Part shown: positions 1,825 to 50,711 of the stretch, piece by piece | Layout of the letters: every line of letters starts with the position of its first letter | Position numbering within the stretch: position 1 is the stretch's first letter | Origin: an uncultured SAR116 cluster alpha proteobacterium | Lineage (GTDB): Bacteria; Pseudomonadota; Alphaproteobacteria; Puniceispirillales; Puniceispirillaceae | Assembly (NCBI GenBank): GCA_902622515.1 | Contig: CACNQE010000001.1 | Location: 248,001 to 312,000 of the forward strand | DNA: 64,000 nt | Direction: 5' to 3' | Position numbers and translations under genes: made by a program | The notes under the pieces: generated by a model | Told to the model about the DNA's origin: nothing | Seen by the model: only the letters and a program-made list of their open reading frames with translations | The model's database searches: none

Positions 1825-4467
1825 AGAGACTAATTCGGTTTTAACAGCTTCGAACGCTTTAAATGCGTCCTTTGGGTTACTACCGCCTGCCTGAGCCATA
1901 TCAAATCTGCCACCGCCCCCTTTTCCACCTACAGCCTCAGAAGCAATGCGAACCAATAAAACAGCATCTAGCTTTCCTTCGCAATCTGGCGATAAGGACA
2001 CAACAATTGATAATTTGTCATCTTGAATAGAAATTAGACATATAACAGTAGTAACAGCATTTAAGCGTAATTTATCAGCAAGCGGCTTTAATTCTTTTGT
2101 TGGTAAATCTTCGAGTATTTTGCCAATAAAGTTATACGGACCAACTTTTTCAGAACGACCTAAATCTCCAGTACCATTTCCAGTAGCGTTTTTTTGTCTT
2201 AATTGAGTAACCTGTGTCTCAAGCTTTTTCTTTTCGCTTAACAAGGCCGCGACCCTATCAGGAATAAGTTCAACTTTGGATTTTAACAAAGTTGCTGTTT
2301 TATTTAAGATTTCCTCTCTAGCCTCAAACCATTGTCTGGCTGAATTATGACTCACAGCTTCAATTCTTCTAATCCCTCCAGCAACTGCAGTTTCAGAAAT
2401 TATTTTTACTTGACCAATATCGCCAGTTCTTTTTACGTGTGTTCCGCCACAAAGCTCTATTGACCAAACTGATTTTCCTCTAGATTTATCAGGGTCACCC
2501 ATAGTAACAACTCGCACTTCTTCACCATATTTTTCTCCGAATAAAGCTAAAGCACCTTCCGAGATGGCTGTTTTTGGTGTCATAAGACGGGTTTGGACAA
2601 GTGTATTCATTTGAACCTGATGATTAACAATATCTTCAATAATCCCCAATTGCTCTGAACTAACAGGTGCGTTATGCGAAAAATCAAACCTTAATTTATC
2701 AGGAGCTACAAGAGAACCTTTCTGAACCACATGCTCTCCTAATGTAAGCCGAAGAGCTTCATGCAATAAATGCGTTGAACTATGATTAGAGCGTAATTTG
2801 TCTCTCCTATCCGCATCTACATTCATTTGTATTGGCTGACCGACTGACAATGAGCCTTTAGAGATCTTGCAATGATGCAAAAATAAAGAAGATATTTTTG
2901 TAGTATTTTCAACATTGGCAAACCCTTCTGGCCAAGAAAAGCAGCCAGTATCTCCTAATTGGCCGCCAGACTCTGCATAAAAAGGTGTTTGATTAGTAAT
3001 GACAATCACTTTTTCATCTTTTGAAGAAATTTTTGTCTCGTCATTGTCTAAAATCATATTTGTTACTATACCCTGAGATGATACCTGACCGTATCCTAAA
3101 AACTCAGTACTTCCATTTCTATCCGCTAGTTCTAAAAATAATCTACTTTCTGTCTTGGATCCAGAGCCCGACCATGCTGCACGAGCCGCATTTTTTTGTG
3201 CCAACATAGCCTTTTCAAAACCGTCTATATCTACCTGCCAGTCATGCCCTCTCAAATAATCTTGCGTAAGGTCTAACGGGAAACCATACGTATCATAAAG
3301 TTTAAATGCAGTTGAACCAGATAAAATATTATTGGTACTCAAGTCCTCCATTTCTTCCTGGAGAATTTTTAAACCACGTGACAATGTATCTTTAAAACGA
3401 GTTTCCTCTGACTCGATTGTTTGAGAAATCAATGACTCAGCCAGATGTAGCTCAGGATAATGTCCACCCATCTCTTGCACCAAACTATTAACCAACCTGT
3501 GCATAACTGGCTTCTCACATCCCAACTGATGCAAATGTCGCATAGCACGCCTCATAATTCTACGTAACACGTAACCTCTTCCTTCATTAGAGGGCAAAAC
3601 GCCGTCTGCAATTAAAAAACCCACAGAACGAATATGATCAGCAACAACGCGATGTGAAACAGAATGTTTACCGTCAATATCAGTATTGGAAATTTGAGCA
3701 GATGCCTTCACAAGTGCACGCATTAGATCAATATCGTAATTATCGTGTTTACCCTGTAACACAGCAGCTATTCGCTCGAGCCCCATACCTGTATCTATTG
3801 AGGGCTTAGGGAGATTAATTCTTCCTTTTTCAGTTTGTTCATATTGCATGAAAACAAGATTCCATATTTCAATGAATCTATCTCCATCCTCTTCCTTAGA
3901 ACCAGGCGGACCTCCATTTATATGCTCTCCATGATCATAAAAAATCTCTGAGCATGGACCACAAGGACCAAGCTCCCCCATAGACCAAAAATTATCTAAT
4001 GTACTAATACGAATAATCTTACTATCACTGAGGCCCGCAATTTTTTTCCATAATGAAATTGCTTCTTCATCCTCATGATAAACTGTTACCAAAAGTCTTT
4101 CTGGATTAAGTTCATATTCTTTTGTAATAAGGTTCCATGCAAGTTCTATTGCATTATCTTTAAAATAATCACCAAATGAAAAGTTTCCCAACATCTCAAA
4201 AAAGGTATGATGCCTCGCCGTATAACCAACATTTTCGAGGTCATTATGTTTACCTCCTGCCCGCACACATTTTTGAGAAGTGACAGCACGTTTATAATGA
4301 AGCTGTTCTAATCCAGTAAATACGTTTTTAAACTGAACCATACCAGCATTTGTAAACATTAATGTAGGATCATTCTGAGGTACGAGTGAGCTGGAGCTAA
4401 CTTCATGATGACCATTCTTTAAAAAATAGGATAAAAATGTAGACCTAATATCATTTACATTCGACAT
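1804..4467 (-). CDS. alaS: Alanine--tRNA ligase
   Basis: Charges tRNA-Ala and edits mischarged Ser/Gly. The 887 residues match the usual length. The class II catalytic core is at the N-terminus (MFTNAGMVQFKNVF around 37-50; CGPCSEIFYDHG around 169-180; GMGLERIAAVLQG around 227-239). The editing domain carries the zinc motifs THLLH (565-569) and CGGTH (673-677). A coiled segment follows, and the C-terminal glycine-rich end (GGKGGGGRFDMAQAGG) is typical of AlaS. It lies downstream of recA on the same strand, separated by 253 bp that contain a strong hairpin just before the start. Its 3' end overlaps the icd terminator. Confidence 0.97.
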   Translation of the reverse strand: MSNVNDIRSTFLSYFLKNGHHEVSSSSLVPQNDPTLMFTNAGMVQFKNVFTGLEQLHYKRAVTSQKCVRAGGKHNDLENVGYTARHHTFFEMLGNFSFGDYFKDNAIELAWNLITKEYELNPERLLVTVYHEDEEAISLWKKIAGLSDSKIIRISTLDNFWSMGELGPCGPCSEIFYDHGEHINGGPPGSKEEDGDRFIEIWNLVFMQYEQTEKGRINLPKPSIDTGMGLERIAAVLQGKHDNYDIDLMRALVKASAQISNTDIDGKHSVSHRVVADHIRSVGFLIADGVLPSNEGRGYVLRRIMRRAMRHLHQLGCEKPVMHRLVNSLVQEMGGHYPELHLAESLISQTIESEETRFKDTLSRGLKILQEEMEDLSTNNILSGSTAFKLYDTYGFPLDLTQDYLRGHDWQVDIDGFEKAMLAQKNAARAAWSGSGSKTESRLFLELADRNGSTEFLGYGQVSSQGIVTNMILDNDETKISSKDEKVIVITNQTPFYAESGGQLGDTGCFSWPEGFANVENTTKISSLFLHHCKISKGSLSVGQPIQMNVDADRRDKLRSNHSSTHLLHEALRLTLGEHVVQKGSLVAPDKLRFDFSHNAPVSSEQLGIIEDIVNHQVQMNTLVQTRLMTPKTAISEGALALFGEKYGEEVRVVTMGDPDKSRGKSVWSIELCGGTHVKRTGDIGQVKIISETAVAGGIRRIEAVSHNSARQWFEAREEILNKTATLLKSKVELIPDRVAALLSEKKKLETQVTQLRQKNATGNGTGDLGRSEKVGPYNFIGKILEDLPTKELKPLADKLRLNAVTTVICLISIQDDKLSIVVSLSPDCEGKLDAVLLVRIASEAVGGKGGGGRFDMAQAGGSNPKDAFKAFEAVKTELVSSKQRNE

Positions 4468-4720: not shown

Positions 4721-5794
4721 CTATTCACCTTCAATCATTGTTTCATCAAGCATTTGACTTTGAACCAAACCTGCATTTTGGCGTATCGCAAGTTCTAGCT
4801 TTTCAGCAACTGACTGATTTTCTGCCAAATAATTTTTGGCATTTTCTCTACCTTGACCAATTCGCTGGGAATCATAGGAATACCAAGAACCTGACTTTTC
4901 TACCAACCCTGCGGCAACTCCTAAATCAATTAATTCTCCAGTTTTTGAAATACCTTCTCCATACATAATATCAAATTCCACTTGCCTGAAAGGTGCTGCT
5001 ACTTTGTTTTTAACTACCTTTACACGGGTCTGATTTCCAACAACCTCATCCTTGTCTTTAATGGAACCAATTCTTCTGATATCTAATCTAACAGAGGCAT
5101 AGAATTTTAGCGCATTTCCACCTGTTGTTGTCTCAGGACTCCCAAACATAACTCCAATTTTTAACCTAATTTGATTTATAAAAATCACCAAACAATTTGA
5201 CTTAGCTATTGAAGATGTCAATTTGCGTAAAGCTTGGCTCATTAAACGAGCTTGAAGACCAACATGTGTGTCTCCCATCTCACCTTCAAGCTCAGCTCTT
5301 GGAACAAGAGCTGCAACAGAGTCAACAACAAGTACATCTACCGCACCAGAACGAACCAATGTATCAGCAATTTCTAAGGCTTGTTCACCAGCATCTGGTT
5401 GAGATATTAACAAGTTATCTAAATCCACCCCGAGTTTCTTAGCATAAACCGGATCTAAAGCATGCTCCGCATCAACAAATGCACAATTTCCATTTTCTTT
5501 TTGTGCTTGTGCAACTGCATGTAAAGCTAATGTAGTTTTACCAGAGGACTCCGGTCCATATATCTCTATAATTCTGCCCTTTGGAAGTCCGCCAATACCA
5601 AGTGCAATATCTAAACCAAGTGACCCAGTTGAAATAGCTTGGACATCATCCACTGAATCGTTCTGACCGAGACGCATAACTGAACCTTTACCAAAAGCTT
5701 TTTCGATTTGGCCAATCGCTGCCTCTAAAGCTCTTGATTTATCATCACTCACCATTTTCATTTCCACTACATTGTTACTCAAGATTTCCTCCAT
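4721..5794 (-). CDS. recA: Recombinase RecA
   Basis: ATP-dependent DNA strand exchange and co-protease for LexA in the SOS response. It shows the Walker A motif GPESSGKTT (around 80-88), [28 protein letters not shown], the L2-loop region ([21 protein letters not shown]) and a C-terminal domain ending in acidic residues (ETMIEGE). The 357 residues are near the family length. The start is uncertain: ATG at 5794 is immediately followed by GGAGG, which is ideally placed to be the Shine-Dalgarno for a TTG at 5782, giving a protein four residues shorter. Two LexA-type boxes lie 78-116 bp upstream, consistent with SOS control. Confidence 0.97.
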
Positions 5795-5871: not shown

Positions 5872-5886
5872 GTACCTGCTTTGTTC
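5872..5886 (-). promoter_or_regulatory. Proximal LexA-type SOS box of recA
   Basis: On the recA strand this reads GAAC-N7-GTAC, one mismatch from the alphaproteobacterial LexA direct repeat GAAC-N7-GAAC (GTTC-N7-GTTC on the other strand). It is 78-92 bp upstream of the annotated recA ATG. The same one-base deviation occurs in the second box. Confidence 0.65.
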
Positions 5887-5895
5887 CTCACATTT

Positions 5896-5910
5896 GTACT
5901 TGTTTTGTTC
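5896..5910 (-). promoter_or_regulatory. Distal LexA-type SOS box of recA
   Basis: On the recA strand it reads GAACAAAACAAGTAC, again GAAC-N7-GTAC, 24 bp from the proximal box. The wider repeats (TTTGTACxTGxTTTGTTC on the plus strand) are near-identical, so the two sites form a tandem pair. It matches the perfect box at 50031-50045 in 14 of 15 positions. Confidence 0.65.
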
Positions 5911-49584: not shown

Positions 49585-49917
49585 ATGAAAAATTTATTTT
49601 ACTCAAAAACTTTTAAAAAACCTTATTATTTTAGTCGAACAGAATTATCGATTATTTTATCAACATATTCTGCAAAAGTAGCACTTGGAGATTGGCGTGA
49701 TTATGCACTTGATCATTCATCTGAGTCAGCATCTTTTTCAATTTATAAACACGCCAACGAAACTCCTGTTTTAATTATTGAAAAGAGAAAATTACGTACC
49801 GATTCAAATTCGTTATTCTTATTGCATGGAAGACACAAAACTTTGCTTAAGTCAAATTCTCTGAAGAGAGTTATCCACTATTTAAATAATCTACCTAAAC
49901 TTATCTATGCCCGTTAA
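49585..49917 (+). CDS. DUF2794 family protein
   Basis: A 110-residue alphaproteobacterial protein. It has the family core RTELSIILSTYSAKVALGDW, RDYALDHSSESASFSIYKH, and the IEKRKLRTDS segment, followed by a helix (LKRVIHYLNNL). The function is unknown. It is the first of three small alphaproteobacteria-typical genes in a row on the plus strand (49585, 50089, 50502). Confidence 0.8.
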   Translation: MKNLFYSKTFKKPYYFSRTELSIILSTYSAKVALGDWRDYALDHSSESASFSIYKHANETPVLIIEKRKLRTDSNSLFLLHGRHKTLLKSNSLKRVIHYLNNLPKLIYAR

Positions 49918-50030
49918 TATTAGCTTCTCGATGCCTAATATTTTGAATATAAAGCAATATTATTCTCAGGATGATTTCTTTATCCAACATATTAAATAGA
50001 TTAATATTGTAAAATTCCTGAATAATAATA

Positions 50031-50045
50031 GAACAAAACAAGAAC
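50031..50045 (+). promoter_or_regulatory. Perfect LexA-type box upstream of the zinc-ribbon gene
   Basis: GAAC-AAAACAA-GAAC is an exact GAAC-N7-GAAC direct repeat, the alphaproteobacterial LexA operator. It ends 43 bp before the ATG at 50089. The 15-mer matches the distal recA box (5896-5910, recA strand) in 14 of 15 positions, and the following AAA is shared too. Confidence 0.6.
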
Positions 50046-50088
50046 AAAATTAATTTCACAACTTTTTCGAATAGGAACTGAATTTAGA

Positions 50089-50382
50089 ATGGAGAAATTA
50101 TTTAAGAAACAAAATTTATTAAATCACGACATGTCAATGTTAACTGCTCTGACATTGCACGATCTTTTAGTCGAAAGACTAGACATTTTTTGCTGGTGTA
50201 ACAATTGTGGCCATAATAATGTGATTGAAACGAAAGAAATTATTAATAAATTAGGTCAGAACTATCCCGTTCCAAAAATTGGATATAAATTACGATGCGG
50301 AATATGCAATAATACAAATAACATCTCAACTCGCCCTAACTGGCCTAATCACAATGGACAACTTACACGTCACATGTCATAA
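50089..50382 (+). CDS. Conserved zinc-ribbon protein, candidate SOS gene
   Basis: A 97-residue protein with two CxxC pairs: CWCNNCGHNN (Cys 56, 58 and 61 region) and CGICNNTNN (around 85-88), the pattern of a zinc ribbon. It is accompanied by a helix LTLHDLLVERLDIF and the C-terminal TRPNWPNHNGQLTRHM. Similar proteins of unknown function are widespread in Alphaproteobacteria, from memory. A perfect LexA-type box lies 43 bp upstream, suggesting induction by DNA damage. Function is otherwise unknown. Confidence 0.7.
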   Translation: MEKLFKKQNLLNHDMSMLTALTLHDLLVERLDIFCWCNNCGHNNVIETKEIINKLGQNYPVPKIGYKLRCGICNNTNNISTRPNWPNHNGQLTRHMS

Positions 50383-50501: not shown

Positions 50502-50711
50502 ATGCAACCAGATGAAATCCAAAGAGTACAAAATTTTTTAACAACAAAATTTCGTGGGGCTGATATTAAATTGAAATCAAGAGAAGAAACAGATGACTCA
50601 GTTGAATTCATTATTGATGGAGAAACACTAGGTATCGTTTTTAAAGATGATGAAGATGGAGATATTTGCTACCATGTCCAAATGACTATATTAAGTGAAG
50701 ATATTAGTTAA
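50502..50711 (+). CDS. DUF3126 family protein
   Basis: A 69-residue acidic protein with the family pattern DEIQRVQNFLTTKFRGADI, DDSVEFIIDGETLGIVFKDD and GDICYHVQMTILSEDI. The family is small, confined mostly to Alphaproteobacteria and uncharacterised. It follows the zinc-ribbon gene after 119 bp and is convergent with the enoyl-CoA hydratase. Confidence 0.85.
   Translation: MQPDEIQRVQNFLTTKFRGADIKLKSREETDDSVEFIIDGETLGIVFKDDEDGDICYHVQMTILSEDIS

Follow-up and report, generated by a model that had tools for sequence, protein, structure and literature searches.

A predicted zinc-ribbon protein gene of Alphaproteobacteria is preceded by a conserved LexA-type operator

A stretch of 64,000 nucleotides from an uncultured SAR116 cluster alphaproteobacterium (hereafter the window), part of a 2.11-Mb genome in 39 contigs, contains a 97-codon gene for a protein with two CxxC pairs, and a short direct repeat of the LexA type lies closely upstream of it. 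This locus raises the question of whether the gene belongs to the LexA (SOS) regulon and, if it does, what its product could contribute to the response to DNA damage. We approached the question through the operator and its surroundings, the conservation of both in related genomes, and the features of the encoded protein.

The operator and its predicted promoter

The 97-codon gene occupies positions 50,089 to 50,382 on the forward strand, stop codon included. On the same strand, the exact direct repeat GAAC-N7-GAAC is found at 50,031 to 50,045 with the sequence GAACAAAACAAGAAC, and a gap of 43 nt separates it from the ATG at 50,089. The earlier note had read this repeat as a LexA operator placed 43 bp ahead of an open reading frame for a 97-residue CxxC/CxxC protein, and both the repeat and its position were confirmed. 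It had also stated that the distal recA box of the window is identical to it in 14 of 15 positions and that no further box, apart from the pair at recA, lies between genes. Direct comparison bore out the first of these statements. The second held as well: the only other exact GAAC-N7-GAAC of the window (4132 to 4146, reverse strand) sits inside an alaS-like open reading frame and is most likely there by chance.

A consensus scan predicted a sigma-70-like promoter, TTAATA-N17-AATAAT, at 50,001 to 50,029 on the forward strand (9 of 12 matches). Taken alone this prediction is weak, as the site is one of eight such in the 621 nt scanned, compared to 4.2 in shuffled sequences. The predicted -10 element ends at 50,029, and a single base separates the promoter from the operator. 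Judging from the promoter consensus, an operator located one base past the -10 element would cover the transcription start.

LexA-type boxes of the genome and the chance level of the motif

An open reading frame of 357 aa on the reverse strand of the window (4721 to 5794), which we take to be recA by sequence recognition, is preceded by two boxes on its own strand, both of the form GAAC-N7-GTAC. The distal box, GAACAAAACAAGTAC, lies at 5896 to 5910, 101 nt before recA, and the proximal box, GAACAAAGCAGGTAC, at 5872 to 5886, 77 nt before the gene. The genome encodes LexA (TIGR00498 of NCBIfam, above cut-off), and lexA has a box of its own, GAACAAACACAGAAC, 17 nt upstream. It also contains an open reading frame with a weak match to ImuA (E 7e-4, below cut-off), followed by a 544-aa open reading frame without an NCBIfam match at the place of imuB and by a 1082-aa open reading frame that scores above cut-off as an error-prone DNA polymerase. 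This is an imuA-imuB-dnaE2-like cassette, in which imuB is named by position alone.

The number of boxes does not exceed chance. Exact GAAC-N7-GAAC occurs twice in the window (1.22 expected; not significant) and 33 times in the genome, compared to 53 occurrences of the reversed control. When a longer pattern was searched with up to two mismatches, 124 sites were counted in the genome against 131, again without excess. The pattern GAACAWANNNNGWAC, which was composed only after the boxes of recA, lexA, imuA and the zinc-ribbon gene were known, has five sites in the genome, all of them promoter-proximal: two at recA and one each at lexA, imuA and the zinc-ribbon gene. Its count is also at the chance level (6.1 expected, six for the reversed control). 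We therefore rejected motif counts as proof, and the case rests on position and conservation. The exact 15-mer GAACAAAACAAGAAC is expected 0.01 times per genome from base composition and was found twice, at the zinc-ribbon gene and 15 nt before imuA. It is this longer match and its placing that are significant, not the motif alone.

In the genome of the window, the strict form of the box, which is the only form that we classified, marks recA, lexA, imuA and the zinc-ribbon gene only. Five other genomes of the family gave 32 sites for the strict pattern, of which 25 were inspected. Fifteen of these precede recA (5), lexA (3), imuA (3) or the zinc-ribbon gene (4), one precedes a UmuD-like open reading frame, and nine lie elsewhere; with the exception of the zinc-ribbon gene, the neighbouring genes carry identities that we presume from recognition.

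Conservation within the family

Orthologues were sought by protein search in 61 genomes, the window's own and others of its genus, family and order, 37 of them from its family and 24 from three other families of the order. The zinc-ribbon gene was found in 30 of the 37 family genomes, the window's own included, and in none of the 24 others. Over three within-genus comparisons dN/dS was 0.22 to 0.33, which shows that this is a real coding gene under purifying selection. At one locus (L065), the frame has a possible start codon downstream of an in-frame stop.

An exact GAACN7GAAC was present upstream of the zinc-ribbon gene in all 30 family orthologues. Together the 30 loci comprise 95,146 nt and contain exactly 30 exact boxes. 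In an alignment of the upstream regions with the box as anchor, its eight fixed letters are invariant by construction, and conservation extended beyond them. The AAA at the start of the spacer is kept in 100, 96 and 100% of the sequences, an A follows the box in 100%, and the TTA before it is kept in 86, 96 and 96%. Downstream, conservation fades within about six bases and from the seventh position onwards does not rise above 0.4 bit. On the upstream side, values over 0.5 bit persist in a CTAAATTA stretch and in scattered columns that resemble a promoter. The commonest letters of the 30 aligned regions read TTGCCT-N17-TAAATT, followed by one base and then the box.

Homologues and boxes outside the family

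A profile built from 19 of the 30 orthologues was searched against 385 genomes sampled from the class and matched 48 of them. Of the 47 places that lie outside the family, 45 were examined for a box in the 300 nt that precede the first CxxC codon. The exact box was found at 20 of the 45, the reversed motif at none, and dinucleotide shuffles of the same places gave a mean of 0.34 boxed places with a maximum of 3 in 200 shuffles. As a further control, the 300 nt past the matched region were searched, and a box was present at 2 places (42 were long enough). The earlier note had named the search for the box upstream of orthologues in relatives as a check of its reading, and the check supports it, with 30 of 30 places inside and 20 of 45 outside the family.

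The 20 boxed places belong to 20 genomes from 13 alphaproteobacterial families, and all 20 genomes have a LexA match. Boxes were present at 10 of 13 places scoring at least 85 bits, 2 of 8 at 60 to 85 bits, 5 of 9 at 40 to 60 bits and 3 of 15 below 40 bits. No exact box was found at the remaining 25 places, two of which (L109 and L161) are shortened by contig ends. They include 3 of the 13 best-scoring homologues (L098, L105 and L107), which do have sites with one mismatch whose meaning is unsure. The commonest version of the box is GTTCTTGTTATGTTC, which accounts for 6 of the 20. According to PMC12700426, this is also the LexA box of two mitomycin-induced, LexA-repressed SOS genes of Caulobacter, ccna_01391 and ccna_02355.

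In a search of 398 genomes of the phylum, 18 matched, and all of these belong to the same class. The search bears on presence within the class, not on absence elsewhere. A tree was built from 54 short rows, for which 12 of the 30 family members were taken and rows L109, L161 and L162 were left out. In this tree 33 of 50 inner branches are open. The presence of the box is clustered (12 changes compared to 17.2 in shuffles), which is compatible with a single origin as well as with several.

Some large genomes (L123 to L142; family f177 and others) hold two or three distant CxxC paralogues. Profile A2 found unnamed small CxxC proteins in family f177, one to three per genome, which have the same layout of cysteines. 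They differ in that they score 30 to 40 bits as opposed to 115 to 138, and their matches mostly stop before the C-terminal motif.

Features of the encoded protein

The product is probably a small soluble protein with a zinc ribbon, in which one metal ion would be held by two CxxC pairs. The first pair (residues 37 to 40, positions 50,197 to 50,208, forward strand) is part of the motif FCWCNNCGH; its C37 and C40, together with H42, are invariant in 19 aligned family members, as are their equivalents in 22 wider homologues. The second pair (residues 70 to 73, positions 50,296 to 50,307, forward strand) is invariant in the same two sets. Across the 19 family members the complete list of invariant residues is L23, C35, W36, C37, C40, H42, P60, P62, G65, C70, C73, P83, W85 and G90, and R94 and H95 are almost invariant. 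The consensus core of the wider set reads FCWCNRCGH...LGPxxPVPExG...RCSxCGSxDVATRPAWP...RH. On reading the sequence we found no candidate for a membrane helix; its longest segment free of D, E, K and R has 14 residues (33 to 46) and includes the first CxxC.

The earlier note had called the function of the protein unknown, and the searches agree that it belongs to no named family: there was no match above threshold in Pfam, NCBIfam or PADLOC. The anti-phage models of PADLOC gave no family at E values up to 0.1, PHROG gave three weak matches only (E 0.02 to 0.23), and profile searches against solved structures gave matches at chance level only, the best with E 0.037 and 0.26. AlphaFold2 reached a pLDDT of 38 for the window's protein alone and of 50 with two relatives, values too poor to assign a fold. 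Named relatives in the genome collection are two, both with 82% identity, from a SAR116-cluster assembly and from an alphaproteobacterial metagenome bin.

The closest resemblance among described domains was to the zinc domain of HypA (PF01155), which likewise has two CxxC pairs and a similar ending. Weak matches to it were obtained for 14 of 19 members, the best with E 0.0023. However, the window's protein scored 13.8 bits and the best of seven other homologues 18.2 bits, whereas the curated cut-off is 28.9 bits; every score shown is below that cut-off, and the match spans only the later half of the profile. Such weak matches are expected for any generic zinc ribbon. We found no description of the zinc-ribbon protein in the literature searched; Erill et al. 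2004 and da Rocha et al. 2008 were outside this search, so that an entry as a hypothetical protein is possible there.

Co-occurrence with LexA and ImuA

Among the class genomes, LexA was matched in 45 of 48 with a homologue and in 258 of 337 without one. An ImuA match was found in 37 of the 48 and in 107 of the 337 (Fisher p 3e-9, a value that ignores relatedness and genome size); the 48 genomes include those with distant paralogues. Within the order, ImuA was found in 34 of the 37 genomes of the window's family and in 0 of the 24 others, by a single-sequence search that can miss divergent copies. ImuA and the zinc-ribbon gene thus have the same limit within the order, namely the window's family. 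ImuA was not found in G015 of this family, nor in 6 of the 20 boxed genomes outside it (G078, G127, G186, G222, G307 and G386). Since the boxed gene exists in genomes without an ImuA match, its product is not an obligate partner of ImuA.

In four genomes that carry both the gene and its box, no LexA match (PF01726) was detected; these are G008 and three members of genus g8 (G024, G029 and G034), with completeness of 61 to 73%. The fourth g8 genome, G016, is 96% complete and has neither a LexA match nor the zinc-ribbon gene; a box lies some 300 nt ahead of its imuA match. PF01726 thus gave no match in any of the four g8 genomes, yet boxes persist in them (L081, L083, L088 and L250:3656). A LexA protein search of seven genomes gave no match, but it was run without a positive control and is uninformative alone. 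The lack of a LexA match in g8 is perhaps due to a divergent LexA, which is our guess, or to genome incompleteness.

The three other families of the order (f2, f3 and f4) have LexA in 20 of 24 genomes, and ImuA and the zinc-ribbon gene in none of the 24. It seems that the SOS regulon was reshaped between sister families of the order.

Alternative readings of the box and of the gene

A box of this kind could be a chance motif, or it could serve something other than the zinc-ribbon gene. GAACN7GAAC is not in excess in the window or in the genome, and A-rich strings arise readily in AT-rich intergenic DNA. A box kept at 30 of 30 orthologues is not what chance would leave, however, nor are 20 boxed places among 45 in the wider set when 0.34 are expected and the downstream control shows two. 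The family conservation, the boxes outside the family and the shuffles together rule out a chance origin. As for the neighbours, a DUF2794 gene lies upstream (49,585 to 49,917, forward strand; PF10984, E 3.5e-20) and a DUF3126 gene downstream (50,502 to 50,711, forward strand; PF11324, E 5.6e-22). Neither carries its own box in the 30 family loci, where boxes and loci are equal in number. We regard both forms of this explanation as extremely improbable. It is also very unlikely that the gene is the cargo of a phage or another mobile element and acquired a LexA box to sense damage of the host. Such an origin would fit a homologue on a plasmid of Bosea sp. Tri-49, the one found in plasmid records, which is annotated as hypothetical and has the box GAACAGAATGAGAAC 67 nt before its annotated start, and it would fit the two or three distant paralogues of some genomes. 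But no relative was confirmed in viral contigs or in phage records, and the surroundings of the gene are stable. Within 1.5-kb flanks, the DUF2794 gene was found upstream on the same strand in 37 of the 50 loci compared (29 of 30 in the family and 8 of 20 others), and the DUF3126 gene nearby in every one of the 30 family loci but in none of the 20 others. The kept DUF2794 neighbourhood points to vertical inheritance, and the arrangement looks ancestral and chromosomal rather than mobile.

Two further explanations accept the regulation and concern the product. SOS regulons commonly include one division brake, and a small, single gene so strongly linked to LexA could encode such an inhibitor of the cell cycle, with a role like that of SulA, SidA or DidA and a division protein as its binding partner. 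SidA and DidA have a single membrane helix; the protein studied here differs from them in that its uncharged stretches are all too short for one. Its conservation is concentrated in the CxxC core, and no recognised division gene recurs among the neighbours in the 1.5-kb flanks. We consider a division inhibitor of this kind (for DidA, see PMC4211646) unlikely. A factor associated with RNA polymerase or otherwise with transcription, which would tune expression during damage, has a similarly low probability in our estimate. The conserved C-terminal RPxW..RH would suit it, and transcription factors commonly contain zinc ribbons; against it, the protein matches no family above threshold and has no credible solved relative (the structure matches at E 0.037 and 0.26 being the best).

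A probable place in the SOS response

The SOS reading put forward in the earlier note is supported by the box kept at orthologues and by a LexA encoded in the genome with its own box. From these sequence features we conclude that the 97-codon gene is, with high probability, a member of the LexA regulon. Operator type, spacing and promoter-proximal place are all the same as in the alphaproteobacterial LexA regulon of recA, lexA and imuA-imuB-dnaE2, for which the Caulobacter operator is GTTCN7GTTC. The zinc-ribbon product, in contrast, is not among the known SOS proteins.

The proposed repression and induction steps are those of the known SOS mechanism. In the undamaged cell, LexA would sit on GAACAAAACAAGAAC, directly past the -10 element and over the transcription start, and would shut the promoter. 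Upon damage, RecA filaments on single-stranded DNA would provoke the self-cleavage of LexA, and transcription of the gene would then start together with that of recA, of lexA and of the translesion cassette imuA-imuB-dnaE2. The protein might act as an accessory of damage tolerance that touches nucleic acid or a protein of repair or replication, with the conserved FCWCNRCGH and TRPxWP...RH as proposed contact surfaces. We favour this role because of the SOS genes that the gene accompanies and its co-occurrence with ImuA, and give it, tentatively, a chance somewhat short of even. A direct link of the protein with ImuA-ImuB-DnaE2 appears improbable. The broadest view is that of an ancient, class-wide core-SOS zinc-ribbon protein, new to description, with damaged DNA or the translesion machinery as its site of action. 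We hold this view, though conceivable, to be rather doubtful.

It is very likely that the gene has been overlooked as a component of the alphaproteobacterial DNA-damage response, and the prediction is that of a damage-induced, LexA-repressed gene. As the operator is kept in all 30 members found in the family and in homologues from another 13 alphaproteobacterial families, the gene likely matters for surviving DNA damage, and this conserved boxed gene is still without a Pfam, NCBIfam or PADLOC family. For bacteria using ImuA-ImuB-DnaE2, it is a candidate for a missing piece of damage tolerance.

A separate observation concerns G015, the family genome mentioned above in which ImuA was not matched. 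Here, a strict box (L185, C1:1625037-1625051) lies 33 nt ahead of a 129-aa open reading frame that is presumably UmuD-like, as named by recognition. This suggests that translesion systems were swapped under the same operator.
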